49,767 nt of DNA from an uncultured Anaerolineae bacterium. GTDB taxonomy: Bacteria > Chloroflexota > Anaerolineae > Anaerolineales > Villigracilaceae. The first letter of the stretch is position 1. Each line of letters begins with the position of its first letter. Both the position numbers and the translations under genes were made by a program. This document shows, one piece after another, positions 5,633 to 35,578 of the stretch. Where the stretch lies: positions 1-49,767 of the forward strand of contig CAILYI010000103.1 in assembly GCA_903838415.1 (NCBI GenBank). The letters are read 5' to 3'. A model generated the notes under the pieces. That model was not told the DNA's origin. It searched no databases and saw only the letters and a program-made list of their open reading frames with translations.

Positions 5633-5678
5633 TACTTACTCCTTGATTATTGAGGGAATCAGAGCGAACTCTGTTATT

Positions 5679-5709
5679 TGTGAAATGTGTTACAAACCTA
5701 CTAATTATG
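5679..5709 (-). promoter_or_regulatory. nifJ promoter with CRP/FNR-type operator
   Basis: On the minus strand an extended -10 (TGG-CATAAT, -10 at 5704-5709) lies about 72 bp before nifJ; no good -35 is seen. Immediately downstream, across the expected start point, is the dyad TGTGAAATGTGTTACA (5679-5694). It matches TGTGA-N6-TCACA in all but one position. This is the shape of a CRP/FNR-family site, which at that location would most simply repress. The regulator is not in the window. Confidence 0.4.
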
Positions 5710-5824
5710 CCACATCTGTACAAGTTTAGTCCTATCAATTTGGATATGATAGTAATAAATGACACCTAAAAAAACCGATCCTTGTCATGAATTTTGGACA
5801 ATGACGAGTGGAAATGTGGACACA

Positions 5825-5864
5825 AAAAAAGCTTCCGAAGTGTCATCACTTCGGAAGCTTTTTT
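5825..5864 (-). terminator. Strong terminator between Nudix gene and nifJ leader
   Basis: The 12-bp stem GCTTCCGAAGTG/CACTTCGGAAGC has a TCAT loop, seven A on one side and six T on the other, so it works on either strand. It lies 2 bp beyond the stop codon of the minus-strand Nudix gene. Confidence 0.9.
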
Positions 5865-5866
5865 GC

Positions 5867-6394: not shown

Positions 6395-6407
6395 GATGGC
6401 TCCCATC

Positions 6408-6440
6408 AAAAAAATACCCGGGCAATAATCCCGCCCGGGT
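6408..6440 (-). terminator. Terminator of the LysM lipoprotein gene
   Basis: Read on the minus strand, ACCCGGGC and GCCCGGGT pair across a 9-nt loop and are followed by a run of T (the A tract at 6408-6414). It lies 20 bp beyond the lipoprotein stop codon. Confidence 0.88.
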
Positions 6441-6460
6441 GTTTGAGAACGGATGCAAGT

Positions 6461-7180
6461 TTATGGGATCTGGATTTGCGCGCCAGCAGTCAGAGTGTAG
6501 CTGCCGGTCAGGCTGTTGACTGAGACGATGCCCATCGGATCGACATCGCCGAATTCGCAGGCCACCGAGTAAATGGTATCACCTGCGCGGACGGTGTATG
6601 CCGTGGGATGTGCCTTGAGCGAGCGTGGGCCAGGGAACGCGCCGCCGCTCTGTGGAATGGTGATGCTGGTTCCGGGAGCGTAATAGCTTTGAGCGCTGCT
6701 TAAGCCGTTCAGAGTCAGCAGTTCGTCGGGGTTGACGTTGTAGCGCCGCGCCAGGCAGTATGGGAACTCACCATCGTGTAAAACATAGGCTCCCGGCTTG
6801 GTGACCGGTGCCGCAGTTACCACGGCAGTGACGCCAACTGTAGGCGTGGGGAGCGCAGTATTGACGGCTGTTGCATTGGTGCTGCTAGTGGGTTCAACAA
6901 CGACCGGGGTCTGGTTGAGTCCGGCCAGCGGGGTTGCGGTTTCACTACCTATGGGGCCTTCTGTTCCGGCCTCTGCTGATGGCATTGGCAAAGATGCAGT
7001 GGCAAGGGCGGTTTGTGTTCCCGCCACTTCGATGGCATTCATGCCAGAGGTCGCCACTGGTTTGGGGAAGTTAGCTTCCAGGGTTGGCGTGACCAGGGGA
7101 GCTGTGGAAGCCGCGCGCGTGCAGGCATTCAGCGTTAGCGCCAGCATCGCTAAAAGGATTAGTGTGAATTTCTTGTTCAT
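6461..7180 (-). CDS. LysM-domain lipoprotein
   Basis: A 239-residue secreted protein. The N-terminus MNKKFTLILLAMLALTLNAC is a lipoprotein signal peptide with the lipobox LNAC. It is followed by about 110 residues of Thr/Pro/Ala/Val-rich linker. Two LysM modules finish the protein. The first is a variant with cysteine (GEFPYCLARRYNVNPDELL, then NGL). The second (AYTVRAGDTIYSVACEFGDV, ending IQIP) lies at the extreme C-terminus. LysM modules bind N-acetylglucosamine-containing glycans, so this is probably a lipid-anchored cell-wall-binding protein. ATG 7180 is chosen because GGAGGAGAA precedes it. An upstream ATG at 7246 lacks a ribosome site. No catalytic domain is seen. Confidence 0.85.
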   Translation of the reverse strand: MNKKFTLILLAMLALTLNACTRAASTAPLVTPTLEANFPKPVATSGMNAIEVAGTQTALATASLPMPSAEAGTEGPIGSETATPLAGLNQTPVVVEPTSSTNATAVNTALPTPTVGVTAVVTAAPVTKPGAYVLHDGEFPYCLARRYNVNPDELLTLNGLSSAQSYYAPGTSITIPQSGGAFPGPRSLKAHPTAYTVRAGDTIYSVACEFGDVDPMGIVSVNSLTGSYTLTAGAQIQIP

Positions 7181-7236
7181 ATTTTCTTCTCCTCCAGAAG
7201 ACGGCCGGGTTGTAAGGGAATCGGTTAGTTTTGTTG

Positions 7237-7265
7237 ATACTAGCACAGACTTTCTAGTGCGTCAA
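7237..7265 (-). promoter_or_regulatory. Promoter of the LysM lipoprotein gene
   Basis: On the minus strand TTGACG (7260-7265) and TAGTAT (7237-7242) are 17 bp apart, and TGC directly before the -10 makes it an extended -10. The leader would be about 50 nt. Confidence 0.6.
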
Positions 7266-7363
7266 GTTTTCACATTATTTATTGGTTTTATTTATCGAAA
7301 TAATCGCCTGATTCGATACAAAGGGCCAACTATTTGATCATTTGCCAGGAAGAACCCCGCAAA

Positions 7364-8143
7364 TCATGGTTTTATTGCGCGCGTTGCCAGATAAGTGGGT
7401 GTGTGATCGCTGATGGCGGTACCGCTGTGTCGGTCTTCGTACAGGCCAATCAAGTGAAAACCAGCCTCCATTTGTCCGGCCAGCTGATCGGTGAGGGAAT
7501 GGCCGTATTCCAGCGGCAAACCGTTGGCCACCATCTGCTCGCGTATAACGGGATAGTCAACGTCCGCATAAGGCAGACTGTGAATGACTTCCAAAACGCC
7601 TTTTTCGGCTTTATCAAAATCAAAGATGTAGAAGATAGGATTCATGAAGCCTGCCAGCATCAGCCCGCCATGCCTGAGCACGCGGAAGGCCTCCTTCCAG
7701 ATTGGGCGTATTTCTGGGATGAAAAGATTTGAAACCGGGTGAAAGACCAGGTCGAAGCTTTCATCCGCGAAAGCTGAAAGGTCGCGCGCATCTCCTTCGA
7801 TGGTGCGCAGGTTGGACAAGCCCTCACGCGCCGCCACTTCGCGGTCACGGTCGAGCTGGCGCGGGGAATTATCGAAAACAGTCACATTTGCGCCCGCGGC
7901 TGCAAAAACTGGCCCCTGTTGGCCACCGCCGCAGGCCAGCGCCAGGATATCCAACCCTTTGAGTGCGGGAAACCACTCGGCGGGCACGGGCTGATTTTCG
8001 GTCAACAACACTGAGAAATCGTTCTGGCGGGCGCGGGCGATCACTTCTGGTTCAACCGGTTTGGTCCAGGGGTTTTCGCCAGCATCGACCTCTCTGTTCC
8101 AGGCTTCCCGGTTATATGAGCGGATATCGATATCCTTTGACAT
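7364..8143 (-). CDS. Class I SAM-dependent methyltransferase
   Basis: A 259-residue methyltransferase of the Methyltransf_11/UbiE-like group. Motif I is LACGGGQQG (about residues 69-77). The acidic end of beta-2 (VTVFDNSPRQLDRDRE) and motif IV region (FDLVFHPVSNLFIPEIRPIW) follow, then the EAFRVLRHGGLMLAGF strand. The C-terminal cap after residue 180 is less conserved and gives no substrate clue. The start has AGGA five bases before ATG. It lies downstream of the DinB-like gene on the same strand, 62 bp apart, and may be co-transcribed with it. Confidence 0.85.
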   Translation of the reverse strand: MSKDIDIRSYNREAWNREVDAGENPWTKPVEPEVIARARQNDFSVLLTENQPVPAEWFPALKGLDILALACGGGQQGPVFAAAGANVTVFDNSPRQLDRDREVAAREGLSNLRTIEGDARDLSAFADESFDLVFHPVSNLFIPEIRPIWKEAFRVLRHGGLMLAGFMNPIFYIFDFDKAEKGVLEVIHSLPYADVDYPVIREQMVANGLPLEYGHSLTDQLAGQMEAGFHLIGLYEDRHSGTAISDHTPTYLATRAIKP

Positions 8144-20267: not shown

Positions 20268-20341
20268 ATTTATCGGCGGGCCGGTGACGGGTGCGTGCTT
20301 TTGCGCCGGTTTGGTGGAGTAAAGTCTGGTTAAATAAAAAT

Positions 20342-20376
20342 GCCCGGGCGGGGAAACCGTCCGGGCGTTATTTTTT
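20342..20376. terminator. Bidirectional terminator between phosphohexomutase and the ASKHA cluster
   Basis: The GC-rich stem TGCCCGGGCGG-type arm (20341-20351) pairs with CCGTCCGGGCG (20357-20367), with TTATTTTTT after it and AAATAAAAA before it. It ends the plus-strand mutase and the eight-gene minus-strand cluster. Confidence 0.88.
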
Positions 20377-20388
20377 AACCAAAAAAGA

Positions 20389-21033
20389 TTAGTGGCTGAG
20401 CGGCGTTTGGCGCAAGCGGCGTGCCAGTAATATGACTGCGACCAGAATGATGGAAAGGATGAACAGCCCAGGTAGCCCGACTTCATCGGCGAAACCGGTT
20501 TTTGCGAGTTGTTGCGTGGCTGCTGCGGCGGCCAATTCGGTTCCGGGTGTTCCCGGGGTGCCAGTTTGGGCAACAGTTGTGGCCTGAGCGGCTGCCAGTT
20601 GGGTCTGCAGGGCCTGGACGGTGGCTGTGGCCGGGTCGCTGGTGGGAACGGTGCTGGCGGTGGGGGTGGCGAATACCACGACCGGGGTTTCAGTGGGCGC
20701 CGCGGTGCTGGTTTCGGTAGGCGGCAGGGTTGGGGTAAACAGCGCGGCCTCTTGGGTTTGCTGTTGGATGCCGAAGGCCTGGGTCATGGCTGCTGCGTTC
20801 GCTTCAGATGTCATTTGCAGGTTGGCTTTTTGGCCCGGCAAAATGAGCAGGGCGTAGACTGCCATGCAAACGAGCGAGAGTAACACGATGCCGCCGAGAA
20901 CGATGGCAGCGATTAGAAAGGTGCGGTTGTTGCTTTCGCCGCCCTCGGGCTGTTCAGGATCGGACGGTTCTGGTGCTGGTGATCCTGCGTTAGGTTGGGA
21001 TTCGTCATCGTCGAATACAAATGTGTTGGCCAT
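20389..21033 (-). CDS. Membrane protein with LAKTG-type C-terminal sorting-like signal
   Basis: A 214-residue protein, last in the eight-gene cluster. An acidic cytoplasmic N-terminus (VFDDDESQPNAGSPAPEPSD) leads to a membrane segment (about 37-62). Then comes a long Thr/Pro/Ala/Gln-rich extracytoplasmic stretch, and the end QLAKTGFADEVGLPG, a hydrophobic helix and RRLRQ. That tripartite end (LAxTG, hydrophobic span, basic tail) is the layout of sortase substrates. Unlike those, the protein starts with a non-cleaved-looking anchor. ATG 21033 has GGAGAAAAAATC before it, and the gap to the upstream gene is 31 bp. Function unknown; no sortase is in the window. Confidence 0.72.
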   Translation of the reverse strand: MANTFVFDDDESQPNAGSPAPEPSDPEQPEGGESNNRTFLIAAIVLGGIVLLSLVCMAVYALLILPGQKANLQMTSEANAAAMTQAFGIQQQTQEAALFTPTLPPTETSTAAPTETPVVVFATPTASTVPTSDPATATVQALQTQLAAAQATTVAQTGTPGTPGTELAAAAATQQLAKTGFADEVGLPGLFILSIILVAVILLARRLRQTPLSH

Positions 21034-21064
21034 GATTTTTTCTCCTTGCCTGGGTAGGTATATT

Positions 21065-22120
21065 TTACCCCAGCACTTCCAGATTGGTGAGTGGAACGAG
21101 TATTTGGTCTCCGCTTTCCAGGCGCACTTCGGCGACCCTGGCTTGCAGGCCATTGGGCAGATGAACCGGGCTGGCGCGTAATTGCATCAGGGTGCCAATC
21201 TGCGCGGGGCTGGCCAGGTGAATGACGCGGACGGTTTGCCCGGGAGCGAAGGTTTCCACTTCGCGCGGTTCAGGTGGTTCTTGCGTAAAGGGTAAGGGAA
21301 TAAAGACTTCGGGGCGGGAGCCGTTCTGCCGGTTGTAGACTTCGGCGTTGAGAGTCACATCACGTTTGATGTTGGTGGAGAGCAGCTTGTAAGCAGTTGA
21401 GTTCATTGGGCGTCGGCCAAAACCATCCAGGATGATGATGGGGAAGTTGGCCTGGGCCGCCAGTGGCAGCAGCGCTGGTGAAATGCTCGCCAGAATCAGT
21501 CCGCGCACGGGCAGTTCGCTGGCGTTTTTGATGACGGCCGGACTATCAGTGTAACCACCCAGTATGATGGAGCCGCGAACGCTGACATCCAACCGGTTGG
21601 CGTCGAAGACTTCGTCGGGGCCGTCCATGGCGCTGACCATCACACCGGTTTCAAGCCGTCCATTGCCCCACAAGCCCTGGACGACGGCCCCGGTGGAGCG
21701 AATGACTACGCCACGCTCGCCGATGACTTCGGTGATGACGCCCGGAATTCCGGCGGCAAGCTCAAAGGATGAGCCTCCCGTCTCGACGATCAGTTTCCCG
21801 CCGCCGATCGCCACAATCCGCCCATCAGCCGGGGATTTGGCTTCGCGGGCAAACAGGCCGGTTGTTTCGGCGATGACTTCGCCTTTGCTGATCTTTTGGT
21901 TTTTTTTGATTTTGACCAGGGCCGCCGCATTTTGTGGAGAAACGCCAAGTAATTGGGCTACATCCACGATGATGTGCTGGCGTCCAACGATGGCTTCCGC
22001 CACGACGTCGGTCGGGTTTACTTTTTGGCCGAGTTTGGCGATGATGCGTCCATCAATGGGCAGCATGCGTTTGCGGACAATGGTGGTCAGCGGGAGGATG
22101 TGTGTGAACGATGCCAGCAT
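21065..22120 (-). CDS. Barrel-sandwich (lipoyl/biotinyl-like) protein of the ASKHA cluster
   Basis: A 351-residue soluble protein with no family I can name. It contains repeated glycine-rich beta segments of barrel-sandwich type: DGRIIAKLGQKVNPTDVVAE (about 23-42), and AREAKSPADGRIVAIGGGKL (about 92-111). In neither is there the modified lysine of true biotinyl or lipoyl domains. A middle part (GVITEVIGERGVVIRSTGA) and a Rossmann-like segment (VRGLILASISPALLPLAAQA, FPIIILDGFGRRP) follow. The C-terminus looks like a small beta domain. It starts 1 bp after the ASKHA gene, so the two are likely co-translated and may act together. Confidence 0.7.
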   Translation of the reverse strand: MLASFTHILPLTTIVRKRMLPIDGRIIAKLGQKVNPTDVVAEAIVGRQHIIVDVAQLLGVSPQNAAALVKIKKNQKISKGEVIAETTGLFAREAKSPADGRIVAIGGGKLIVETGGSSFELAAGIPGVITEVIGERGVVIRSTGAVVQGLWGNGRLETGVMVSAMDGPDEVFDANRLDVSVRGSIILGGYTDSPAVIKNASELPVRGLILASISPALLPLAAQANFPIIILDGFGRRPMNSTAYKLLSTNIKRDVTLNAEVYNRQNGSRPEVFIPLPFTQEPPEPREVETFAPGQTVRVIHLASPAQIGTLMQLRASPVHLPNGLQARVAEVRLESGDQILVPLTNLEVLG

Positions 22121-22121
22121 G

Positions 22122-23873
22122 TTAGCCTCCCAGGGTGGTGATCCACTTTTGCGCCAGGTTGCGGCGCTGTCCGACGTCGGTTGGCAGGCGCAGCGGACGT
22201 CCGCGCGCGTCGATGACGATGCCCAGCGATGATCCGATCACATCAACTTCACCGGCGCGGCCCGGCCCCAGGCCAACATCGGCGCGATGGAGCGGGCGTA
22301 GTTGCAGACGGGCTGTCTGGCCATTTTCCAGCGGCAGGATTTGCAGGTCGCCCATCTTGACTTCGCTGGCCATTTCGCTATTATCGTCTCTGATGAGCTT
22401 GGCGCGTACGATGGGCGTGCCATAGGCCACGTCACAGATAGGCGAAATGACCGTGGCAAGATAACCCAGCGCGCCCGAATCGATTACTTGCACGGGCAGG
22501 ATGTTGTTGACTTCGGCGATTGCGCCGAGCATGGCCAGTAAATTGTTCTGGTCGAGCGCCAGGGTGGCGATTCCGGCGGGCTGGAGGCCGTCGAGCAGCA
22601 TGAGCAGTTTTTGTCCGGTTGTGGCTGCGCTGGTGATGGCTGCGCCCCCGGCCAGTATCGGTTCAAAAGCTGGTAGGAGCCCATTGCGCGGGCGGAAACG
22701 TCCCGGCAGGCGTTGCAGCATCCAGCTTGAAGCCAGCTGCAGATTCTGACGCACGATGGCCTGTTCGATGGCCAATTCTTCCTTAGTCGCCGGGATGGCC
22801 CCAGGGTAGACCGATTTTTGATACAGATAGTCGCGCACGGTGCTGGCGGGAATATCCAGCGGCAGCCAGCGCGCAATCTCATCCAGCGTTGTCAGCTTGA
22901 GTAGATTATCCAGCGCCTCGCCCAGGCCGAGTTGGGGGAACACATTCAGGTGCAGATCGCCCTCAAAGGAGGCGCCCATCGAAACGGCTGAAGCGCCAAT
23001 GTCAACGCTCAGTACGCCTTTCCCCGAGTTGTAGTAACTCGACAGGAAACGCACCATCCGTCCCTGTGCATAGGAGGTCGGCAGGATGATTCCGCCTGAA
23101 AGAGTGCGGGCTTCTTCCAACTCAGGCATTTGTTTCTGGCGGATTTCGACGACCATATTGGCCAGTTCGCGTTGCGCGGGGGCCAGATCTTCCACTTCCA
23201 GCGTGGGCCGGATATTGGGGCTGATGTGGATGGAAGACGCGATGTTACTGAGCGACCCTTTCACTTCCTGTGCTAGCTGCTTGTTTCCGGCGTACAGAAC
23301 TGCCGGGCGTTTGGTTTCGGGAAGCAGGTATGCGGCCAGGCCGATGATTTCCAGTATTTTTTGGGTGGAATGGGATGCGCCGCCATCCATGCCCCCGGCG
23401 ATCAGCACCAGCTCGGGGCTGTGGCGGACGATGTCATCCACCTGCTCATCGATGTGGCGCGGGTCGTTGAGATTGATGCTGTCCACCACGCGGATGTAGG
23501 TGGTTTGCGCTAGGCTTTCGACGGATTTGAGCGACACATCGGGCAGCAGGCCGACAATCAGCGTTTTGATGGCTGAGCCGAGTGACAGGGTGGTCACCAT
23601 GCTATCCATCCCGGAGCCATCCGGCTGGGACGGGATCGTCAAACGACCTTCGTCATCCATCAAGGGTTTGCCGATCAGTGTTTGCAGGTTTTCGATGGCG
23701 AGTTGTACGCCGAGCATGGCATTCCGCACGGGTGGGTTGGAGGTGGTCGGGGATTGCCCCATTCCGATAAATCGGTAGCGGCCTTCCACCACGTCAAAAT
23801 AAGTGGCGCGTGTGTTGACTGCGCCGATATCGACTGCCAGTATTGAGTTACCTTCGATGAGTGAAGTTGGCAT
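22122..23873 (-). CDS. GlmL/MutL-like ASKHA-fold ATPase
   Basis: A 583-residue protein of the actin/Hsp70-like (ASKHA) superfamily, closest in pattern to GlmL (MutL), the accessory protein of B12-dependent glutamate mutase. The N-terminal phosphate loop is LAVDIGAVNTRATYFDVVEG. A second DxG motif, VLSVDIGASAVSMGASFEGD, opens a later half (about 290). ELVLIAGGMDGGA and EPILAGGAAITSA are the adenosine-type strands. No glutamate mutase S or E subunits are near, so the usual name would mislead. It sits centrally in a membrane-protein cluster divergent from a B12-mutase subunit and MeaB. Likely role: an ATP-dependent switch or chaperone for a membrane complex (inference). Confidence 0.72.
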   Translation of the reverse strand: MPTSLIEGNSILAVDIGAVNTRATYFDVVEGRYRFIGMGQSPTTSNPPVRNAMLGVQLAIENLQTLIGKPLMDDEGRLTIPSQPDGSGMDSMVTTLSLGSAIKTLIVGLLPDVSLKSVESLAQTTYIRVVDSINLNDPRHIDEQVDDIVRHSPELVLIAGGMDGGASHSTQKILEIIGLAAYLLPETKRPAVLYAGNKQLAQEVKGSLSNIASSIHISPNIRPTLEVEDLAPAQRELANMVVEIRQKQMPELEEARTLSGGIILPTSYAQGRMVRFLSSYYNSGKGVLSVDIGASAVSMGASFEGDLHLNVFPQLGLGEALDNLLKLTTLDEIARWLPLDIPASTVRDYLYQKSVYPGAIPATKEELAIEQAIVRQNLQLASSWMLQRLPGRFRPRNGLLPAFEPILAGGAAITSAATTGQKLLMLLDGLQPAGIATLALDQNNLLAMLGAIAEVNNILPVQVIDSGALGYLATVISPICDVAYGTPIVRAKLIRDDNSEMASEVKMGDLQILPLENGQTARLQLRPLHRADVGLGPGRAGEVDVIGSSLGIVIDARGRPLRLPTDVGQRRNLAQKWITTLGG

Positions 23874-23878
23874 AAGGA

Positions 23879-24580
23879 TTAATAGATGAACTTTGATAAT
23901 ATCTGGTCAAAAAATAATACGATGGATTGCACCCGGTCGACAAAGGCGGCTAGCGCGGCTGCCAGCACTCCGGCGAAAATGGCGCCCAGCGTGATGGCGA
24001 TAAAGACCTGTCCCAACAGGGCGAAGAAGCTCACAAACCAGCCGCGTTTTCCGGCGGAGTTGTTGCGGCTACGCACCGTGAACTGGAAATAAGCCAGGGT
24101 GACGATTGTTCCCACCAGGGCGAACGTGCCGGTCAGCAAATTCCCTGCCACAGCCCCCAGGCTGATGCTGGATCTCACGTCGAACATATCCGCCGCGGCG
24201 AGCACCTGTGGGAAAAGGGTTCCCAGCACGGCGCCGGATACGGCTGCGGCGGTGCCGATGCCGACCAGCAATGCCACGACGGGGCGTCCCATCCACTCGA
24301 AACGGGCGGACATTTTCGTCAATAGAAACAAGCCCATAATCAGGGGAAAAGCCAGCAGAATGCGATCCTGCATGGTCCCATTGACCAGTGGCAGGAACAT
24401 CTTATTGACAATGACCTGCCGGAAGACCACCACTGCGATATAACCGACTGAAACGCCCGCAAAAGCATGGATGGCCAGCCGGAAACCGGGATTGTCGCCC
24501 ACTACGTAGCTCAAAATGAGCACTGTGAACAGAAAGCTGAGAAAACCTGTGATGATGTCTGTTTGAATAGCGCCCGGCAT
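23879..24580 (-). CDS. Six-helix membrane protein of the ASKHA cluster
   Basis: A 233-residue integral membrane protein I do not recognise. About six membrane segments can be seen. The first is ITGFLSFLFTVLILSYVVGD and the second is FRLAIHAFAGVSVGYIAVVV; the others lie near 78-95, 101-125, 143-168 and 183-215. A short basic loop (VRSRNNSAGKRG, about 170-181) probably lies in the cytoplasm. No transporter or enzyme motif is evident. Its stop is 5 bp before the ASKHA start, and its ATG directly abuts the stop of the 935-aa gene (TAAATG), arguing for a fixed stoichiometric complex. Confidence 0.72.
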   Translation of the reverse strand: MPGAIQTDIITGFLSFLFTVLILSYVVGDNPGFRLAIHAFAGVSVGYIAVVVFRQVIVNKMFLPLVNGTMQDRILLAFPLIMGLFLLTKMSARFEWMGRPVVALLVGIGTAAAVSGAVLGTLFPQVLAAADMFDVRSSISLGAVAGNLLTGTFALVGTIVTLAYFQFTVRSRNNSAGKRGWFVSFFALLGQVFIAITLGAIFAGVLAAALAAFVDRVQSIVLFFDQILSKFIY

Positions 24581-27388
24581 TTAAGCCTCGTCCTGTTCCA
24601 TAGCAGAGCGGCGAGCGCGCAGGCTGGTCATCAGCCCCCAAACCCCGCCAATGATGATGAGTAATTCGGTGGCGAGCAGACCTGCCCCGAAGGCGTCCCA
24701 GTTCATGCGCGCCGGGCCATCTTTGCCCGCGGCGCTTTCGTACAGCGCTGCGCCTTCCAGCCCGGCCACCAATCCCTTGATTTGACCGGAGAGCAGGTAG
24801 GGTTGCAGCATTGGTTCGGCCTGTGCGCTGATCAGCATCAGCAAGGGAGTTCCCGCCAGGGCCGCTTCAGATTGTTCAATCCACAGGCGTCCGGTATCGG
24901 GATTGTCAGTCATCACCACCAGTGCCGAAAAATCGGCCAGACGGTTGACTCCCGCCATGGAGGGCGTGTCCCATAAATTACCCAGGATGGTATCCTGCCC
25001 GACGGTTGTCTTCGGCCTGTCAGAAAAGACTTTAATTCCACCAGCGCCGCCCGGCAGGTATCCGAGGTTCACATACTGCGTGCCTGCCACATAAGTGCTT
25101 GAGACCTTTTGCATCAAGCGTTCCGCCATGTAGCTGCCCATTGGCGAAGTGGAAATGAAGGCCAGCCGCGCCTGTTTGTCCACCAACTGAGCCAGCACTG
25201 CTCCGGCAGCCGGTTCCAATTCGCCGGCAAATCCCGGCTGATAATCGACCACCAACAAGACCGGCGCGCCTGCGGGAATATTATTCGTCGTTTCAATAAA
25301 GGCGCTGATGGTGCTTTTATCTGTGGAAAGCTGCGGCGCAGGGAATATTCTGGTTCCCAGAATCGCCGGTATCAAGACCACCAGCAACAAGACCGCCGCA
25401 ATCACCAGGCGCAAGGGCCGTATGACTTGCGTTTGGGTCGATTTTTTGACCGCTTGCGGCGTGTTTTCAGAATTTAAGAGATTTTCAAGCAGTGCGGCCT
25501 GCGCCAGCTGGGTTTCATTCGCCAGTAATTTGATCGAAAAAACTTTGGGCTTATGCGCTTCCGGCAATCCGGTTTGGCCCGGCAAGGTATTACGCAGTCC
25601 GGCCAGCGGTCCCTGATTCTCAAAGTTATCCAATTCGCCGTCTTCATCAGCGTCCGAGATGACCGCTTCCATCGGGCGCATGGCTTGCACCCAAGAAGGC
25701 AATTCAGCCGGTCTCAGATCGGCATCGTCGGGCTGATCCTCCGCCGGGGCGTTTTTTTGTTCCACTTTTGGCGGCGTAAATCCAGAAAGCCAATCGGGTA
25801 CTTCCATGTCCAGGATCGCATCCAGGTTTTGTTCTTCGCCGGAAACGTTGAAGGAGATGGGATCTTCCGTTTCTGGAGCAGGGGCTTCCATTGGAGCGGA
25901 TTCCGCTTTGGCGGGTTTGACCGGTTCAGGTTGACCCTCAGCCTCTGTCGCCGTTTCGATAGCTACAGCCCCGGCGGACAGGTTGTTCATCCAATCAGGT
26001 AGTTCCGCCTCGACAGGCAAACTCGCGGCTGGAGCTGTGGGTAGGATTTGTTTCGCGGCAGGCGCCTCGGCAGGTCCGCCGAGATTGGCCATCCAATCGG
26101 GTAATTCACTGTCTGCAATGATCGGCTTAAGTTCTTGCAGTGCGCCGGTATTAAATGGTTTTGAGGCGCGCACGGCTTTTTCATCCGGTTGTTCGCCGAT
26201 CGCCTCGGCCAGCCAGGATGGCAAATCCCCATCGATGGGAGCCGCCGGTTCTTCAGCGGTCAGCGCCTGTTCCTGCCCGGAATCCATCCAATCGGGCACT
26301 TCAGCTGCGGAGGCTGGTTCCGGTTCAATTTCAGCCTGCGCGGGAGCGGGGGCCGCATGATCTTGCAGGCTGCTGATCCAATCCGGCAGATCGGCGGCGG
26401 GCGGCTGGTTTTCAACCGGGGCTGCGTCATTGCGGACAGGTTCTGCGCCGAGATTTGACAGCCAATCGGGCGTGTCGATGCTTGATATGGCCGAGGCCGA
26501 GGTTTCATCGGGGGTAAACGTGCCGCCCAGGTCGGACAGCCAATCAGGCGCGCTGCCAGCCGAGATATTTTCTGGCGGAGCTTCCAAATTTGGAGCTTCG
26601 ATTCCGGTTCCCAGGCTGGAGAGCCAGTCCGGGGTGTTATCGTCAGGGGCGGAAGTCTGTCCCAATGAGCCGGATTCAGGCTGCGGGATGGATTCAGTGC
26701 CTGTTTCGGAGAGAGACGCCAGCCAGTCGGACATATCCTGGCCCGCGAGCGGGTCAAAATCCGCTTGTGCGGCGGGCGTATTCTCCGCAGAACCGGAGCG
26801 GGCGGTTTCATCTTGCGCTTTGAGATCCGCGAGCCAATCAGGCGTATCATCAGCGACCTGCGGAGCGGATTCGGCGTTTTCGTCAAAGTTAAATGTGATT
26901 GGCTGCGTGCCAAAGCCCCAGTTTTGCTCAGACTCGGCAGGTGGTTCCGGCTCCGGGTTGGAGTCAAGCTGCCAATCGGGAGTTTGCGCCTGTTCCTGGT
27001 TCGGTTCAGCGGGCTCCGGGGCGGCAGTCGGCAGGCTGCTTTGCAGGCTTTTCAGCCAATCGGGGGTTTCGTCATCATCTTCCCCGGCCTGCGAGAGCCC
27101 GGCCAGAAGATCGAGTGGGGCGGCCTTGGGGGGCGCAGGTTTTGCCACCGGCGGCTCCGCTGGGGCAGAAGCTGGCGCTTCTTTTTTGGTTGCGTTGCGG
27201 ATGTCCCTGAGCCAGCCGGGTAGGGTGCTTTCCAGATCAGACGTTTTTGTTTTTACCGGCATATCGCCGGGGTGAATGGGCGCCAGTGGTTCGGTGGCAT
27301 TTCTATTCAACGCGCTGCCGCAATACTGGCAGGTTTCGACATTTATAGGATTCTGTTTTTCGCAAGTGGGACAAATTGAAGTATTCAT
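24581..27388 (-). CDS. Zinc-ribbon membrane scaffold with about 15 PDWL repeats
   Basis: A 935-residue protein with four parts. (1) An N-terminal zinc ribbon CPTCEKQNPINVETCQYC (CxxC-x10-CxxC). (2) About 600 residues of acidic, Pro/Ala-rich, probably disordered chain carrying some 15 copies of a short motif, mostly x-P-D-W-[LMI]-x-x-[LMF] (TPDWLKSL, TPDWLADL, MSDWLASL, APDWLSDL, LPDWISSL, LPSWLAEA, LPDWMNNL and others). (3) A membrane span (VIRPLRLVIAAVLLLVVLIP, about 670-690). (4) An alpha/beta extracytoplasmic domain (APVLLVVDYQPGFAGELEP onward) and a C-terminal span near 905-925. ATG 27388 overlaps the preceding stop by one base. Function unknown. The repeats look like docking motifs for a partner. 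Confidence 0.8.
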   Translation of the reverse strand: MNTSICPTCEKQNPINVETCQYCGSALNRNATEPLAPIHPGDMPVKTKTSDLESTLPGWLRDIRNATKKEAPASAPAEPPVAKPAPPKAAPLDLLAGLSQAGEDDDETPDWLKSLQSSLPTAAPEPAEPNQEQAQTPDWQLDSNPEPEPPAESEQNWGFGTQPITFNFDENAESAPQVADDTPDWLADLKAQDETARSGSAENTPAAQADFDPLAGQDMSDWLASLSETGTESIPQPESGSLGQTSAPDDNTPDWLSSLGTGIEAPNLEAPPENISAGSAPDWLSDLGGTFTPDETSASAISSIDTPDWLSNLGAEPVRNDAAPVENQPPAADLPDWISSLQDHAAPAPAQAEIEPEPASAAEVPDWMDSGQEQALTAEEPAAPIDGDLPSWLAEAIGEQPDEKAVRASKPFNTGALQELKPIIADSELPDWMANLGGPAEAPAAKQILPTAPAASLPVEAELPDWMNNLSAGAVAIETATEAEGQPEPVKPAKAESAPMEAPAPETEDPISFNVSGEEQNLDAILDMEVPDWLSGFTPPKVEQKNAPAEDQPDDADLRPAELPSWVQAMRPMEAVISDADEDGELDNFENQGPLAGLRNTLPGQTGLPEAHKPKVFSIKLLANETQLAQAALLENLLNSENTPQAVKKSTQTQVIRPLRLVIAAVLLLVVLIPAILGTRIFPAPQLSTDKSTISAFIETTNNIPAGAPVLLVVDYQPGFAGELEPAAGAVLAQLVDKQARLAFISTSPMGSYMAERLMQKVSSTYVAGTQYVNLGYLPGGAGGIKVFSDRPKTTVGQDTILGNLWDTPSMAGVNRLADFSALVVMTDNPDTGRLWIEQSEAALAGTPLLMLISAQAEPMLQPYLLSGQIKGLVAGLEGAALYESAAGKDGPARMNWDAFGAGLLATELLIIIGGVWGLMTSLRARRSAMEQDEA

Positions 27389-28017
27389 CAATTTTCCCCG
27401 TAAGGCCGGTCGGCCCCAAGCAAAACGCGCAGGCCGGTGGTGAGTGTGCCCAGCGCCACGCCGATTAATATGCCACGCGCGCCGCCCGCGGTCAGGGCGT
27501 TTGAGATGAAGGGTTTCACCCAGTCGCTCAGGAAGGGTATTTGTCCGATGAAGGGCAGGGGGGCTGAGCCAAGCAGGATGATCAACGTGGTTGAAAGGAA
27601 TATGATCGAGGTCAGGTTACCGCGCAGGCGTAAAAGTCTCACGCTGGCATAAACCAGCGTGACCGCCAGCACGGCCATCAGGCTGATTTCGGCCGGGATC
27701 ATGATGCCATTCAAAATGACATGCTGAAGTTGTTCAAAAACCGGGGTAATGCTCACGGTGGCTGTCAGCAGCAGGAAAAAGAGCAGCACCAGGCTGTAGA
27801 CTGAGCCAGGTCGCCGCTCGTGGATTTTTTGCAGGTGGACGGCGAACAGATTCCATATCCCGACCAGCATTGCCACCCCTGCCAGGATGACCGCCCATTG
27901 CAGCAGGATGAAGCCAAATCCGCTGACAGCGGGCAGGCTGATAAAATAGCCCAGCAAGACGATAATTCCAACACTGATTGCGATGACAGCATTGGCAGCC
28001 GCAAAGACACGTTTCAC
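27388..28017 (-). CDS. Multi-span membrane protein of the ASKHA cluster
   Basis: A 209-residue hydrophobic protein with about six membrane segments (about 10-30, 35-62, 73-92, 107-126, 135-157 and 182-202). Only short loops separate them; the loop HLQKIHERRPGS is basic and probably cytoplasmic. No family was recognised. Translation begins at GTG 28017, which overlaps the stop of the previous gene (GTGA), and its own stop shares a base with the next ATG. It may form the membrane core of the complex with the 233-residue protein. Confidence 0.7.
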   Translation of the reverse strand: MKRVFAAANAVIAISVGIIVLLGYFISLPAVSGFGFILLQWAVILAGVAMLVGIWNLFAVHLQKIHERRPGSVYSLVLLFFLLLTATVSITPVFEQLQHVILNGIMIPAEISLMAVLAVTLVYASVRLLRLRGNLTSIIFLSTTLIILLGSAPLPFIGQIPFLSDWVKPFISNALTAGGARGILIGVALGTLTTGLRVLLGADRPYGEN

Positions 28018-28760
28018 AATACACCTGCCATTTTTAGCGCCGGCCCGGCCAGCAGGGCCAGGATGATGAACCAGCGCAGAATATCTTGCACCAGCAGGCT
28101 GGCAGAATGGGAGGCTCCCGCTTGAAGGTAGGCTCCGGCCGCGAACAACTCTTCGCCAATCAGTGGCTCAGATGACGCGGCATATAACACAGCTTGCGCT
28201 GTCAGGTTGTCGCTGGCGGCAATTACGTTGGCGTTTTGCCGGTCCGCGGATTCAGTCAGCAGGCCGACTTCAGGTCCAAAGTTGCCAATCAGCACATTGG
28301 ATGAAATGCTCTCATCTCGAATGGCTGGCATCACGCCTGCCACGTAGGCCAGCGGCGTGAAACCGGTAATCCGGGCGTTATTCATATCAAAAGCATGATC
28401 CACAGCGACAGTATTGTGCGCTGCGCGCAGGGTGTCCTGCGCGAGCAGGTTGAGCAATCCGCTGCCGGTGGTGGCGACGGGCGGCCGGTCGCTGAGGGAA
28501 GTGACTTCTCCCAGGCGGCGTAGCAAAGCCAGCCCGGCCAGCGCGGAGGCGCCTGCCGGAGTCAGCACGCTGCCATTGCCTAACGCCACGTGCAGGCGCG
28601 TGCCATCTTCCACGACCAGGCTTGCGGCGCGGCGGATGCGTGAAAAAGCTCTAATATTGCGAAATGAAAAAGGGGAACGCCGGTGAATGAAGGCAAGCAG
28701 GGCGATAAAAAAAGATACCAGCGCCACGATACCGAGTCCGGCAAAACCTGTGGGGGTCAC
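28014..28760 (-). CDS. Membrane-anchored alpha/beta protein of the ASKHA cluster
   Basis: A 248-residue protein with an N-terminal membrane helix (LGIVALVSFFIALLAFIHRR) and a C-terminal one (DILRWFIILALLAGPALKMA). Between them is a soluble domain of about 180 residues containing GTRLHVALGNGS, SDRPPVATTGSG and GNFGPEVGLLTESADRQNAN. It reminds me of a DUF-type family (possibly DUF6754), but I cannot confirm this without a search. Start is GTG 28760, sharing a base with the preceding TAG, and its stop overlaps the next GTG. No enzymatic motif is evident; a structural or sensing role is guesswork. Confidence 0.7.
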   Translation of the reverse strand: MTPTGFAGLGIVALVSFFIALLAFIHRRSPFSFRNIRAFSRIRRAASLVVEDGTRLHVALGNGSVLTPAGASALAGLALLRRLGEVTSLSDRPPVATTGSGLLNLLAQDTLRAAHNTVAVDHAFDMNNARITGFTPLAYVAGVMPAIRDESISSNVLIGNFGPEVGLLTESADRQNANVIAASDNLTAQAVLYAASSEPLIGEELFAAGAYLQAGASHSASLLVQDILRWFIILALLAGPALKMAGVL

Positions 28761-29005
28761 TACGGCTGTCCTTTCAGCAGGGCGGCAAAGGCCCTGGCTT
28801 CATCTTCTTGCTCCAATAAATTTGCCAGTGCGCTAAATCCCTGCGTGGCGGTGGATGGAATCAGCGGTTGGCTGATGTAAAGCAGCTGCGCCCCCAAAAT
28901 ATTGAGCGGCCCGGCGGCCTCAAGAACCCAGGCAGCCAGTTCTACCCAGCCCTGCCTGCGCAGAAAATCCATCCATATCGGCCAGTATGTGCGCGGCTCA
29001 TCCAT
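28760..29005 (-). CDS. Small protein opening the ASKHA cluster
   Basis: An 81-residue protein, MDEPRTYWPIWMDFLRRQGW at its start, then amphipathic helices (VELAAWVLEAAGPLNILGAQ) and an acidic end (LLEQEDEARAFAALLKGQP). No family was recognised. ATG 29005 is preferred over an in-frame upstream ATG at 29026 because an extended -10 (TGC-TATACT) lies 11 bases before 29005 and covers the earlier codon. There is no Shine-Dalgarno, and the leader would be only about five nucleotides. It is the first gene of the cluster and shares one base with the next start. Confidence 0.6.
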   Translation of the reverse strand: MDEPRTYWPIWMDFLRRQGWVELAAWVLEAAGPLNILGAQLLYISQPLIPSTATQGFSALANLLEQEDEARAFAALLKGQP

Positions 29006-29025: not shown

Positions 29026-29037
29026 TAAATTATAGAA

Positions 29038-29079
29038 CAGGCGTCACATGATTGTATATCGCCTGCATTGCAGGCGTCA
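29038..29079. promoter_or_regulatory. Operator-like palindrome and direct repeats between divergent operons
   Basis: The palindrome CGCCTGCATTGCAGGCG (29060-29076) has two perfect 8-bp arms around one T. CAGGCGTCA occurs at 29038-29046 and again at 29071-29079, 33 bp apart, about three helix turns; the second copy overlaps the palindrome. The block lies between the -10 of the ASKHA cluster (29017) and the -10 of the mutase-subunit/meaB operon (TATAAT, 29107-29112), as expected for a site that controls both. Confidence 0.55.
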
Positions 29080-29106
29080 AGGGAAAAGTTGTGCAGGCTT
29101 CAATAG

Positions 29107-29112
29107 TATAAT
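29107..29112 (+). promoter_or_regulatory. -10 box of the mutase-subunit/meaB operon
   Basis: A perfect TATAAT about 29 bp before ATG 29141. No -35 match is seen at 16-18 bp, so activation by a factor bound at the palindrome upstream is possible. Confidence 0.4.
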
Positions 29113-29140
29113 CAGCGTGCTAAATCCTCATGGAGGCAAA

Positions 29141-29548
29141 ATGACTGAACAAAAAATTCGTGTGCTGGTGGCCAAACCGGGTTTGGATGGACATGATCGG
29201 GGGGCAAAAGTGGTAGCCCGCGCCTTGCGTGACGCTGGAATGGAAGTCATCTATACCGGGCTGCGCCAAACACCAGAAATGATCGCCGAAGCTGCGTTGC
29301 AAGAAGATGTGGATGTGGTTGGCTTATCAATTTTGTCGGGTGCGCATATGGCCCTGGCTCCGCGCATTCTTGAACTGCTCAAGGCAAACGGTCAAACTCA
29401 GGTAAAAGTCTTTATTGGTGGCATCATTCCGGATGAAGATGTGGTTCGTTTGAAGCAGCTGGGCATCAGCGGTGTTTACGGCCCTGGCGCCTCAACCGAA
29501 CAAATTGTTGCCGATATTCGTGGAGCAGTTTCTGGAGTTGCGGCGTAA
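29141..29548 (+). CDS. Methylmalonyl-CoA mutase cobalamin-binding subunit
   Basis: A 135-residue stand-alone B12-binding domain. The cobalamin signature D-x-H-x-x-G is at Asp 16, His 18, Gly 21 ([13 protein letters not shown]); the [10 protein letters not shown] and [18 protein letters not shown] segments complete the lower-ligand fold. Such small subunits pair with a separate catalytic chain to interconvert methylmalonyl-CoA and succinyl-CoA. The catalytic chain is not in the window. ATG 29141 has GGAGG before it; upstream in-frame codons lack a ribosome site. meaB begins one base after its stop. A different acyl-CoA mutase (for example ethylmalonyl- or isobutyryl-CoA type) cannot be excluded. 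Confidence 0.88.
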
Positions 29549-29549
29549 C

Positions 29550-30554
29550 ATGTCGCTGGCTGATTCCGTCCTTAATGGCGACCGCCTCGCGCTGGCGCGC
29601 CTGTTGACTCGTGTGGAAAATGACACCATCGAAGGCCGCGAGGCACTCGACGTGCTGTTTCCGCACACCGGCAAGGCTCACTTAATCGGCGTGACCGGCG
29701 CTCCGGGCACCGGAAAGTCGACGCTCGTCAACCAGATCGCGCTCTCTTTTCGCAAGCTGGGACAGCGCGTGGCGATTGTGGCGATCGACCCATCCAGTCC
29801 GTTCACGGGCGGTGCTGTGCTTGGCGACCGGGTGCGCATGCGCGATCTGGCCGGGGATACGGGAGTCTTTATCCGTTCGATGGCTTCGCGTGGCTCGTTG
29901 GGCGGGTTGGCGCAGGCCACTGCCGGACTGGTGCAAGTCTTCGATTCCGCCGGTTTTGAAATAATTTTGATCGAAACCGTCGGTGCGGGGCAGAGTGAAG
30001 TGGATATTGCCCGGCTGGCGCATACCACGCTGGTGGTCGAAGCGCCGGGGCTGGGGGACGAAATCCAGGCCATCAAGGCTGGAATTTTGGAGATTGCCGA
30101 TATTTTGGTGATTAATAAGGCTGACCGGCCCGGCGTGGAAAGTACCGAACGGGCGTTAAAAAATATGCTGGAAATGGCCCACCCGGTGCCGAAAATTTTC
30201 CAACATCACGGTCAAACGCTGACGGAAACTCTGCCCGACAACCCCAGCCCTAACGCCTCGCTGTGGTTTCCGCTCATTCAGCGGACGGTGGCAACTGACG
30301 GGGCCGGGCTGCCGCAGTTGATTGAGTCGATTCAGCGGCATGCGGCGCATCTACGCCAGAGTGGCGAGTGGCTCACCCGCGAGAGAGCCAGGCTGGAGGC
30401 TGAGTTTGATCTTTTTATCCAGCAAGAATTGGTTGCACGTTTTCGCGCCGGTCTCCCTGAAGCAAAACTCGCTCAAATAATGGAATCCATACAAAACCGC
30501 AAGATTTCTCCGCGCGAGGCGGTAAGTGTGTTATTAAATGGGGGCGTGTCATGA
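29550..30554 (+). CDS. meaB: MeaB-family GTPase, B12-mutase chaperone
   Basis: A 334-residue G3E GTPase of the MeaB/ArgK group. The Walker A loop is GAPGTGKST (50-58). DPSSPFTGGAVLGDRVRM covers the switch I region characteristic of MeaB, ETVGAGQSEVDI is the G3 region and NKAD the base-recognition motif near 187. MeaB proteins gate adenosylcobalamin loading and protect methylmalonyl-CoA mutase from inactivation. The start follows the B12-subunit stop by one base. Its last four bases overlap the next ATG (ATGA). Confidence 0.93.
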   Translation: MSLADSVLNGDRLALARLLTRVENDTIEGREALDVLFPHTGKAHLIGVTGAPGTGKSTLVNQIALSFRKLGQRVAIVAIDPSSPFTGGAVLGDRVRMRDLAGDTGVFIRSMASRGSLGGLAQATAGLVQVFDSAGFEIILIETVGAGQSEVDIARLAHTTLVVEAPGLGDEIQAIKAGILEIADILVINKADRPGVESTERALKNMLEMAHPVPKIFQHHGQTLTETLPDNPSPNASLWFPLIQRTVATDGAGLPQLIESIQRHAAHLRQSGEWLTRERARLEAEFDLFIQQELVARFRAGLPEAKLAQIMESIQNRKISPREAVSVLLNGGVS

Positions 30555-33687: not shown

Positions 33688-34527
33688 TTATTCTTGTGGT
33701 TTCAGATAACGAGCCGTCAAAATCGGGCACTGACCGATTTCCGCCACATCGGCAGTCACGTTGGGGGTGTAGTGCTGTCTCAGGCTGCGCGCCGAATATT
33801 GCGACCCCATGCAGATCAGATCATAATTTCCGTCTTTGACTTCAGCCAGGATTTGCTCGACCACATTGCCGTGCCGCACTTTGATGCGGGCTTCCAGACC
33901 CACTTTTTGGGCGCTTTCCAGCCCTTCGCGCAGATTACGTCCGGTCAGGGTGTCGGTATTTTCCACGTTCTTCCAGTTTTCGCGGATTTTTCGCGCTTCG
34001 GGGTAGTCCAGGTTGATCGGGGGAATCACCGTCATCAGCGTGACCGTGGCTGAGTTCATTTGCGCCACCCTCAATCCCAGATGCTCGGCTGTGACGGTGT
34101 AACCCAGCCCGCCCATGCAAATGAGAACGCGTTTAATTGGCATGCGCACCGCTGGAACAAACAAAATTGGAATTGTGACATCGGCCATGATCTGCCGGAA
34201 GGAATTTCCCAAAACCATGCGGCGGATTTGCGGTCTGCCAAACGGGCCAAAGACGAGCATTCGTTCTGATTCGGGGTTGGCGCGGCGCGAGATGGCCGCT
34301 TCGGCGGAGCCGTTGTCCAACTCCAGCGAGTAATCAAGCCCATATTCCTGAAAGAGCGTGACCGCGCGGCTGAAGATTTCTTCCACCGGGTGTTCGTCAT
34401 CGTTGCCTTCCACCACACCGACCAGCGCCAGGCGCGAGGCCATTGTTTTGGCAATCCACGCGCCGTATTCAATCGCGGGCCAGGTTCCTTCAAAGCCGTT
34501 GGTGAAAATCATTAGTTGCGGTTTCAT
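33688..34527 (-). CDS. Universal stress protein, tandem UspA domains
   Basis: A 279-residue protein made of two UspA-like alpha/beta domains (about 1-128 and 129-279). The first starts QLMIFTNGFEGTWPAIEYGA and ends in the strand IPILFVPAVRMP. The second starts RVLICMGGLGYTVTAEH, contains DLICMGSQYSARSL and ends CPILTAR. The G-2x-G-9x-G(S/T) ATP loop of ATP-binding Usp proteins is only partly kept (MGSQYSARSLRQHYTPNVTA). The start overlaps the stop of the chromate-transporter gene upstream (ATGA), placing it in that operon. Confidence 0.85.
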   Translation of the reverse strand: MKPQLMIFTNGFEGTWPAIEYGAWIAKTMASRLALVGVVEGNDDEHPVEEIFSRAVTLFQEYGLDYSLELDNGSAEAAISRRANPESERMLVFGPFGRPQIRRMVLGNSFRQIMADVTIPILFVPAVRMPIKRVLICMGGLGYTVTAEHLGLRVAQMNSATVTLMTVIPPINLDYPEARKIRENWKNVENTDTLTGRNLREGLESAQKVGLEARIKVRHGNVVEQILAEVKDGNYDLICMGSQYSARSLRQHYTPNVTADVAEIGQCPILTARYLKPQE

Positions 34528-35063
34528 CGGAATAAAAATACTCCTAAAATCCCGGCGCCGAACAGCACCAGTGGGGATGGCAGGTCAAACCACAGCGCCA
34601 CAAATGCGACTGCGCCAATTGCCAGCGCCCGCCGTCCAATCGATTTACTGGCGTCGGAGCGGAAAATTTGCCACGCCACCAGCGCAATCAGCACGCCCAC
34701 GGCGGGCGACATGCCCTTGATGAAATTTTCCATCCAGGTTTCGCTTTGATAGCGTTCAAGAACGGAGACCACCGTTAGCATGATGATGGTGGGCGGCAAA
34801 ACGGCACCCACCAGCGCTGTCAACACTCCGGGGAAGCCGCCCGCCGCAAAACCGACGAACATTGCCAGCTTGAGGGCTTCGCTGCCGGGCAGGACGTTTG
34901 ACAGTCCCACCGCTTCGATGAATTGCGCCTCGCTCATGATTGTCCCCACCGATTCTTTGTACAATAGCCCGACGGAGGCCGGGCCCGAAGTGGTCAGCAG
35001 GTTGACCTTCAGGAACATCCAGAATAATTTCAGCCAGACGGAAACTTTCGCAGGTGGATTCAT
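34524..35063 (-). CDS. chrA: Chromate transporter, half-size (CHR family), second partner
   Basis: A 179-residue membrane protein, one CHR domain. The family signature is clear: FLKVNLLTTSGPASVGLLY, then VLPGSEALKLAMFVGFAAGG and ALVGAVLPPTIIMLTV. About five membrane segments. Full-length ChrA has two such halves fused; here the halves are separate genes (35060-35578 is the other), as in the short-chain CHR pairs that need each other for chromate export. It overlaps the partner by four bases. The transport substrate may be chromate or another oxyanion. Confidence 0.88.
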   Translation of the reverse strand: MNPPAKVSVWLKLFWMFLKVNLLTTSGPASVGLLYKESVGTIMSEAQFIEAVGLSNVLPGSEALKLAMFVGFAAGGFPGVLTALVGAVLPPTIIMLTVVSVLERYQSETWMENFIKGMSPAVGVLIALVAWQIFRSDASKSIGRRALAIGAVAFVALWFDLPSPLVLFGAGILGVFLFR

Positions 35064-35578
35064 CGGAACAGGAGAACTCCTGTCAGCCCGGCTACCAGGA
35101 TGACGAGCGGCGCCGGAAGCTCAAAGATCAGCGCCGCCAGGCTTGCGCCTCCAATAATCAACGATTGCCAGCCCAGCCCGCCATTGCCGCCTTTGAACAC
35201 TTTCCAGGCGACGAAAAGCATCAAAACGGCGACTGCCGGGGTCAGGCCTTCGACAAAACTTCCCACCCACGATTCGCGGCGCAGACGGTGCAAAACCGAT
35301 ACCACGCCGAACATCAGCACCGTTGGTGGCAGGATGGCGCCAAATAGGGCCACCGTTCCACCGGGAATCCCGGCGATAGTGTATCCGATAAACATGGCCA
35401 GCTGCAATGCGTCCGAGCCGGGCAGGAGCGTGGAAAATCCCACCGCCTGGATGAATTGCTGTTCTGTCAAAAAGTGACCAACGGCCTCTTTGTACAGCAG
35501 CCCCACCGAAGCCGGGCCGGAGGTGCTGAGCAGGTTGACTTTCAGGAAAGTCCAGAAAAGGAGAAGAAGTTTATCCAT
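35060..35578 (-). CDS. chrA: Chromate transporter, half-size (CHR family), first partner
   Basis: A 172-residue single-CHR-domain membrane protein, closely similar to its downstream partner: FLKVNLLSTSGPASVGLLYK, LLPGSDALQLAMFIGYTIAG, and ALFGAILPPTVLMFGVVSVL. The similarity of both halves, each starting FLKVNLL, suggests tandem duplication, with opposite membrane topology usual for such pairs. It begins 11 bp after the elp3 stop and runs on through the second half and the universal stress protein. Confidence 0.88.
   Translation of the reverse strand: MDKLLLLFWTFLKVNLLSTSGPASVGLLYKEAVGHFLTEQQFIQAVGFSTLLPGSDALQLAMFIGYTIAGIPGGTVALFGAILPPTVLMFGVVSVLHRLRRESWVGSFVEGLTPAVAVLMLFVAWKVFKGGNGGLGWQSLIIGGASLAALIFELPAPLVILVAGLTGVLLFR

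Follow-up and report, generated by a model that had tools for sequence, protein, structure and literature searches.

A two-module gene system combining a GlmL-like ASKHA protein with a four-protein membrane core in Chloroflexota and other bacterial phyla

The subject of this analysis is a group of eight genes, named g1–g8 in order of transcription, on the minus strand (positions 20389–29005) of a 49,767-nucleotide contig of an uncultured Anaerolineae bacterium (CAILYI010000103.1, assembly GCA_903838415.1); the whole stretch is referred to as the window. Our results strongly support the view that these genes represent one conserved membrane-linked system, wider than had been proposed in an earlier note made from the sequence alone. 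Whereas that note had described an eight-gene set, the comparative data point to a seven-component, two-module system spread over roughly a dozen phylum names, with its apparent Chloroflexota form in the window. The interpretation that we prefer, at a probability of roughly 0.45, is that in this widespread two-module system a reactivase-like switch formed by g6 and g7 acts on the cytoplasmic side of a membrane complex formed by g2–g5.

Operon organisation and protein families

All eight open reading frames (ORFs) were found at the places given earlier, and their stop-to-start spacings from g1 to g8 (−1, −4, −4, 0, 5, 1 and 31 nt) agree with the description of seven genes that overlap or lie at most 5 nt apart, followed by g8 after 31 nt. 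The genes, and the parts of g4 that matter below, are as follows.

28760–29005, minus strand: g1, small protein of 81 amino acids; belongs to the g1-g6-g7 module in other phyla
28014–28760, minus strand: g2, DUF6754 (PF20539) protein; predicted membrane helix, cytoplasmic Rossmann-like domain and membrane helix
27388–28017, minus strand: g3, membrane protein with six hydrophobic segments
24581–27391, minus strand: g4, 936 amino acids; zinc ribbon, disordered region with PDWL repeats, membrane helix, exodomain and membrane helix
25690–27064, minus strand: PDWL-type motifs inside g4, 12 copies, by motif count against shuffles
24605–25435, minus strand: conserved helix-domain-helix part of g4, by profile match
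23879–24580, minus strand: g5, membrane protein with six hydrophobic segments
22122–23873, minus strand: g6, GlmL/MutL-family ASKHA protein of 583 amino acids; C-terminal domain with DARGRPL
21065–22120, minus strand: g7, predicted barrel-sandwich, swivelling beta/beta/alpha and KOW/SH3 protein
20389–21033, minus strand: g8, two-span surface protein with an LAKTG-type C-terminal anchor motif

Six hydrophobic spans each were detected in g3 and g5 and two each in g2, g4 and g8, confirming the two six-span and two anchored proteins (g2 and g4) read earlier alongside the 81-residue g1; the crude hydropathy threshold was also passed by two weak segments in g6 and one in g7, which were taken as buried. 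Only g2 and g6 matched Pfam families above the cut-off, and none of the eight proteins had an NCBIfam match above cut-off. The g2 protein is a member of DUF6754 (71.7 bits, cut-off 27), for which Pfam states no function. For g1, g3 and g5, Pfam and NCBIfam gave no match at E values up to 1. Two features of g4 had previously been overlooked: an N-terminal zinc ribbon, for which the Pfam match lies below cut-off, and the PDWL-type motifs, of which there are 12 copies, whereas 2000 shuffles averaged 0.29 and never exceeded 3.

Conserved gene order in Chloroflexota

DUF6754 was detected in 67 of the 301 Chloroflexota genomes sampled; besides the window's genome, 66 carried it, and the loci of 60 were fetched and searched with iterated profiles. 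In all 61 loci (window included), the detected genes were ordered g1-g2-g3-g4-g5-g6-g7, many of the loci ending at contig edges. All seven genes were present in 31 loci and g1 to g6 in 17, and the remainder lacked at least one gene or were cut by contig ends; the individual genes were found in 58 (g1), 59 (g3), 51 (g5), 50 (g6), 33 (g7) and 25 (g8) loci. Given this shared order, the grouping of the genes is not due to chance. The flanking genes vary by clade and were mostly read as housekeeping, the changing neighbours read from sequence including RadA, PIN-TRAM, D-Tyr-tRNA deacylase, RecG and DegV, and the commonest neighbour cluster occurred in 11 loci. Because the flanks differ between clades, the operon itself is the unit.

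Upstream of g1 in the window, a B12-binding protein and MeaB are encoded divergently (29048–30554). Together with the naming of the GlmL family after glutamate mutase, this neighbourhood would suit a system that repairs a B12-dependent mutase or loads its cofactor, in the window the adjoining methylmalonyl-CoA mutase. A Chloroflexota locus without a DUF6754 match (L164) offers another point of contact: its 1268-residue ORF (4221–8024) has a weak B12-binding match at the start (23.9 bits, cut-off 32.1) and a MutL domain at the end, and is a possible B12-domain–GlmL fusion. We nevertheless consider a B12-mutase role improbable. MeaB neighbours only 8 of the 61 loci and the B12-binding protein only 5, all of them within the window's family, and other clades carry genes read as RadA, RecG or DegV at that flank; since it is confined to this family, the MeaB/B12 neighbourhood was rejected as an indication of function. 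Furthermore, the glutamate mutase E family (PF06368) had no match in the window's draft genome (99% completeness, 8.6% contamination), so the earlier statement that the mutase subunits are absent holds for E; S was not searched for separately. Such a role would also leave the four membrane proteins unexplained.

Relatives in other phyla and the two modules

Relatives outside Chloroflexota were searched for in a genome collection with the conserved end of DUF6754 as the query. The loci compared here are the best 80 of at least 533 confirmed relatives, ranked by similarity to the query, and are not a random sample. According to their record titles, they come from WOR-3/Stahlbacteria, Latescibacterota, Gemmatimonadaceae, Eisenbacteria, Armatimonadota, Planctomycetota (anammox bacteria and Phycisphaerae), Nitrospirota, Methylomirabilota, Poribacteria, Zixibacteria, Cloacimonadota, Edwardsbacteria, TA06, UBP7 and CSSED10-310. 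All four core genes (g2, g3, g4 and g5) were present in 75 of the 80 loci, and profiles for single genes matched g1 in 29, g3 in 78 and g5 in 75. The exact order g1-g6-g7-g2-g3-g4-g5 was found in 25 loci and the exact order g2-g3-g4-g5 in 34, the remaining 21 being truncated, partial or tandem forms. The core lies inside the g1-g6-g7 module in Chloroflexota and after this module elsewhere; thus, two modules, the membrane core g2-g3-g4-g5 and g1-g6-g7, move as blocks.

The g4 of other phyla is the counterpart of the C-terminal helix-domain-helix part of the window g4, which matched a profile built from g4 of other phyla and Chloroflexota with an E value of 1e-80. When the 80 loci were searched with a g8 profile and a full-length g4 profile, the latter covering the zinc-ribbon/PDWL half, nothing scored below E 1e-3. 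The earlier note had looked to a gene-neighbourhood survey for co-conservation of all eight genes in distant genomes; this was borne out for the order within Chloroflexota and for seven components in distant phyla, but not for g8 or for the g4 half with the zinc ribbon and PDWL motifs. The g2 and g6 trees, made from 37 chosen loci (21 from Chloroflexota, 16 from elsewhere) and containing several very long-branched Chloroflexota rows, agree on the main splits: both separated Chloroflexota from the others with 100% bootstrap and grouped Nitrospirota with Methylomirabilota.

At six loci (L090, L099, L107, L112, L125 and L148), two or three g2-g3-g4-g5 cores stand in tandem. Tandem cores would suit several substrates, and two six-span proteins accompanied by two anchored ones whose domains probably face opposite sides of the membrane could be read as a transporter or secretion complex with g6–g7 as its energising or gating unit. 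This alternative appears rather unlikely. Beyond the missing family matches of g3 and g5, neither protein had a solved-structure match below E 2, and the window g6 lacks the TTD motif described below. In addition, no substrate-related gene was seen to be constant; the top neighbour cluster reached 12 of the 80 loci, besides the 11 Chloroflexota loci noted above.

Two DUF6754 proteins of about 1000 amino acids at L128 (1927–4971 and 7358–10297) have a long N-terminal extension, which was read as a signal peptide and extracellular domains.

Co-occurrence of unlinked modules

In 47 of the 80 other-phyla loci, g6 was not found. Of these, 27 were chosen for a genome-wide search, which covered all but the genome of L123; among the resulting 26 genomes with a g6-less core locus, MutL was present in 25 and g7 in 25. 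At MutL loci from 16 of those genomes, g1 adjoins in 12 and g7 in 8; at L180, L182 and L183, the g6 found belongs to a second, g2-linked locus. In Chloroflexota, g7 was detected in all 28 genomes searched (20 whose fetched core locus shows no g7, 5 from which no locus had been fetched and 3 controls).

Among 149 Planctomycetota genomes, DUF6754 was found in 41, MutL over cut-off in 42 and g7 in 38, with all three in 35. DUF6754 and MutL occurred together in 36 genomes, DUF6754 alone of the two in 5, MutL alone in 6 and neither in 102; the corresponding counts for DUF6754 and g7 were 36, 5, 2 and 106. Fisher tests, which ignore shared ancestry, gave 7e-23 for DUF6754–MutL and 1e-26 and 2e-28 for the other two marker pairs. 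In the 301 Chloroflexota genomes, MutL over cut-off was present in 65 of the 67 genomes with DUF6754 compared with 57 of the 234 without. Together with the conserved order, this co-occurrence supports the earlier proposal that the genes behave as one unit.

A gene read as glycine dehydrogenase subunit 2 (gcvPB) lies directly upstream of g1–g6 at L172, L173, L179, L181 and L191. A link to glycine cleavage was not generalised.

The GlmL-like protein g6

As had been noted, g6 is an ASKHA ATPase-like protein of the GlmL family. It scored 180.7 bits against Pfam MutL (PF13941, cut-off 27), covering positions 1–446 of 450, and thus resembles the GlmL/MutL family (PF13941; NF040745, TIGR01319) over nearly the whole Pfam model. 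It differs from GlmL itself in reaching only 70.1 bits against the model for the methylaspartate mutase accessory protein (NF040745, cut-off 475), in a further domain of some 120 amino acids at the C-terminus, in the loss of the TTD motif and in the absence of a mutase E match from the same genome.

An active ASKHA ATPase has two D-x-G phosphate motifs with a following Thr/Asp and glycines at the adenosine site. In the window g6, the first phosphate motif (D-x-G-T) is present, while the second has D-x-G but lacks TTD, and the adenosine site reads AGGA, compared with GSGG in other phyla. In alignments picked for diversity (A2–A7, at most 48 rows each), TTD was present in none of the 48 other core-bearing Chloroflexota rows and in 2 of 19 Chloroflexota rows without a core, compared with all 32 aligned rows from the other-phyla loci and 16 of 17 rows in a further other-phyla set. 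The window g6 therefore lacks the full motif set of an active ASKHA ATPase. Because TTD is lost, hydrolysis seems doubtful in Chloroflexota; the motifs speak against ordinary ATP hydrolysis in the window organism, where g6 may still bind ATP. The ATP-driven action suggested by the earlier note thus appears to fit relatives in other phyla, where the ASKHA motifs are retained, and is doubtful for the window g6.

Several g6 tails finish in a basic-aromatic stretch, and two (L045 and L049) contain PDWL/PEWL motifs in the C-terminal tail. With the PDWL repeats of g4, these features could suggest a Chloroflexota envelope or division scaffold, in which an ASKHA polymer would lie at the membrane in the manner of FtsA, MreB or PilM, tethered through basic tails and a multivalent PDWL scaffold and linked to a surface protein. 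The C-terminus of g8, the LAKTG-type membrane protein of the earlier note, has LAKTG ahead of a hydrophobic span with a basic tail behind it, and is LPXTG-like (15.8 bits against TIGR01167, just short of the cut-off of 15.9), and six sortase matches were found in the window's genome. Such a scaffold is nonetheless quite unlikely, as g6 belongs to the GlmL family and neither Pfam nor NCBIfam listed FtsA, MreB or PilM for it at E values up to 1. The missing g8 and zinc-ribbon/PDWL matches in the 80 other-phyla loci further imply that this role is unlikely to be ancestral.

Predicted folds of g2 and g7

The g7 sequence gave weak matches to barrel-sandwich families in Pfam and NCBIfam, and its predicted structure comprises barrel-sandwich, swivelling beta/beta/alpha and KOW domains, in agreement with the barrel-sandwich protein recognised earlier. 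The barrel-sandwich fold occupies the first 140 residues and resembles the RnfC N-terminal or biotin carboxyl carrier domain. An Rnf-like redox complex, which this RnfC-like start might bring to mind, is extremely unlikely: the window g7 contains no cysteine, no column with at least 80% cysteine was found among the 25 rows of alignment A3, and RnfC is the sole Rnf subunit matched among the eight proteins.

In profile searches against solved structures, g2 had no match, and g3, g4, g5 and g6 gave nothing below E 0.11, whereas the g7 profile gave KOW-type matches (NusG, 0.014; Spt5, 0.19). A lysozyme chain matched to g7 at 8.5e-6 was judged a chance hit, its best stretch extending over only 47 positions. 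Foldseek returned nothing below 0.01 for the g2 model; for the g7 model, only NusG fell below 0.001 (6.4e-5), yet with a TM-score of 0.16. In VIA-align, KtrA/MthK RCK, Sir2, COMT and quinate/shikimate dehydrogenase were closely tied for g2; an RCK identity was not adopted on account of these ties, and g2 is named only as Rossmann type. Among the kinds of look-up put forward in the earlier note, the profile searches thus yielded no solved-structure relative for g2–g6. Swivelling beta/beta/alpha proteins (AF_0055/UPF0107, the aconitase X small subunit, the pyruvate kinase C-terminal domain and RraA) share 7%–16% identity with g7; no common function is implied.

Reactivase-like pairing, fusions and stand-alone scaffolds

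In a review of glycerol dehydratase reactivase, the alpha subunit is described as having ATPase, insert, linker and swivelling domains, and ATP hydrolysis is stated to help a partner leave the swivelling domain (PMC7674605). Diol/glycerol dehydratase reactivases share with g6–g7 the pairing of an ASKHA protein with a swivelling domain. This pairing is found in a single chain at L185 (3926–7009), L188 (9196–12408) and L189 (9211–12234), where GlmL-like paralogues share one reading frame with barrel-sandwich and swivelling domains of the g7 type; the fetched stretches of these three loci contained no core gene. The g6–g7 pairing and the fusions therefore appear similar in arrangement to a B12-enzyme reactivase. 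Unlike DdrA/GdrA, the window has separate genes, together with barrel-sandwich and KOW domains and a four-protein membrane core.

Stand-alone proteins with a zinc ribbon, PDWL motifs and basic tails precede g6–g7 at three Chloroflexota loci with no detected core (L152, 6972–8798; L157, 3423–5504; L171, 10572–12428).

Proposed mechanism and its weighing

In the mechanism that we propose, the four membrane proteins g2–g5 form the core, with the Rossmann-like domain of g2 probably in the cytoplasm and the g4 domain probably outside. The second module would consist of GlmL-like g6, its partner g7 (barrel-sandwich, swivelling and KOW domains) and small g1, and g6–g7 could serve as a chaperone-like nucleotide switch, much as the ATPase and swivelling domains do in B12-enzyme reactivases. 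This switch might dock on the cytoplasmic side of g2–g5 and then assemble, gate or reset the complex. The PDWL scaffold of Chloroflexota, carried by g4 or by a separate protein, would tether g6–g7 at the membrane, and the switch may rely on nucleotide binding more than on hydrolysis because TTD has been lost. The system would then be an undescribed machine of about a dozen phyla, in which a reactivase-type chaperone made of an ASKHA protein and a swivelling domain is dedicated to a membrane complex instead of a B12 enzyme. In its Chloroflexota form, a multivalent PDWL scaffold would organise an ATPase that has lost its catalytic motif; we offer this fuller picture tentatively.

The conserved order, the exchange of whole modules, the co-occurrence and the fusions of GlmL paralogues to g7-type domains were observed, and the domain folds were predicted. 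Gene order, co-occurrence and fusions suggest a physical complex; from the same sequence-based observations, we infer the contact of g6 and g7 with the core, its direction of action, its nucleotide dependence and the sidedness of the domains. The core might serve in transport, in lipid or envelope work, or as a redox or other membrane enzyme.

Several observations weigh against this interpretation. Twenty loci were fetched from the 93 Chloroflexota genomes with MutL at E 1e-3 and no DUF6754 match (57 of these genomes are over the MutL cut-off), and 16 of the 20 loci contained a g6–g7 pair (strongly diverged in L169) without a detected membrane core. At L162 and L164, moreover, g6 was present but g7 was not, and L168 had neither gene. 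In the opposite direction, 2 of the 67 Chloroflexota and 5 of the 41 Planctomycetota genomes with DUF6754 lacked MutL. A further 6 Planctomycetota genomes had MutL without the core marker. The MutL-type match of the fused paralogues ends before the g6 C-terminal domain, and their g7 part lacks KOW. The g2 model yields only generic Rossmann matches, and the swivelling fold of g7 also occurs in unrelated pyruvate kinase, rifampin phosphotransferase, RraA and the aconitase X subunit; because it is common to unrelated proteins, the fold alone tells no function. At L167, another of the 20 loci, g2, g3, g4, g6 and g7 were recovered with the profiles built here, and the Pfam DUF6754 model had missed its g2. 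Given the core-less g6–g7 loci and this missed core, g6–g7 may have a different target, or the core may be too diverged to be detected.

Taken as a whole, we regard the system as new, although its component folds are known: g6 falls short of the GlmL model and no mutase E match accompanies it in the genome, g7 lacks the cysteines of an Rnf subunit, g6 shows no FtsA, PilM or MreB match, and no description was found. In agreement with the earlier note, which had recognised no published system, a search of the open-access literature (subscription journals not covered) found neither a description of the system nor the names DUF6754, PF20539 and PF13941. The comparison thereby adds an order-conserved gene set that has no assigned function and occurs in many phyla, including Nitrospira and anammox Planctomycetota, its DUF6754 marker being carried by 41 of 149 Planctomycetota and 67 of 301 Chloroflexota genomes sampled. 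It also provides an orphan GlmL-like ASKHA branch with a recurrent partner set, and joins DUF6754 and five unnamed families (g1, g3, the g4 exodomain, g5 and g7) in one system.

Other features of the window

The putative signals bounding the operon are as follows.

20339–20369, no strand assigned: intrinsic terminator hairpin with a 13-bp stem, 9 G-C pairs and T-rich tails, between g8 and a convergent phosphomannomutase gene
29029–29080, minus strand: two promoter-like sites upstream of g1, 10/12 matches each, by consensus only

The hairpin corresponds to the single terminator reported earlier beyond g8; the scan reports it in plus orientation, and its T-rich tail on the minus strand was taken from the sequence. 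Promoter-like sites numbered 8 compared with 4.3 in shuffles, and terminator-like sites 14 compared with 10.4. Given these counts, single sites of either kind are weak evidence.

Elsewhere in the window, two adjoining half-length chromate transporter genes lie at 34524–35578, and overlapping frames on the minus strand at 42782–46815 encode a transglutaminase-core protein and a GAF-PAS-adenylate/guanylate cyclase protein.

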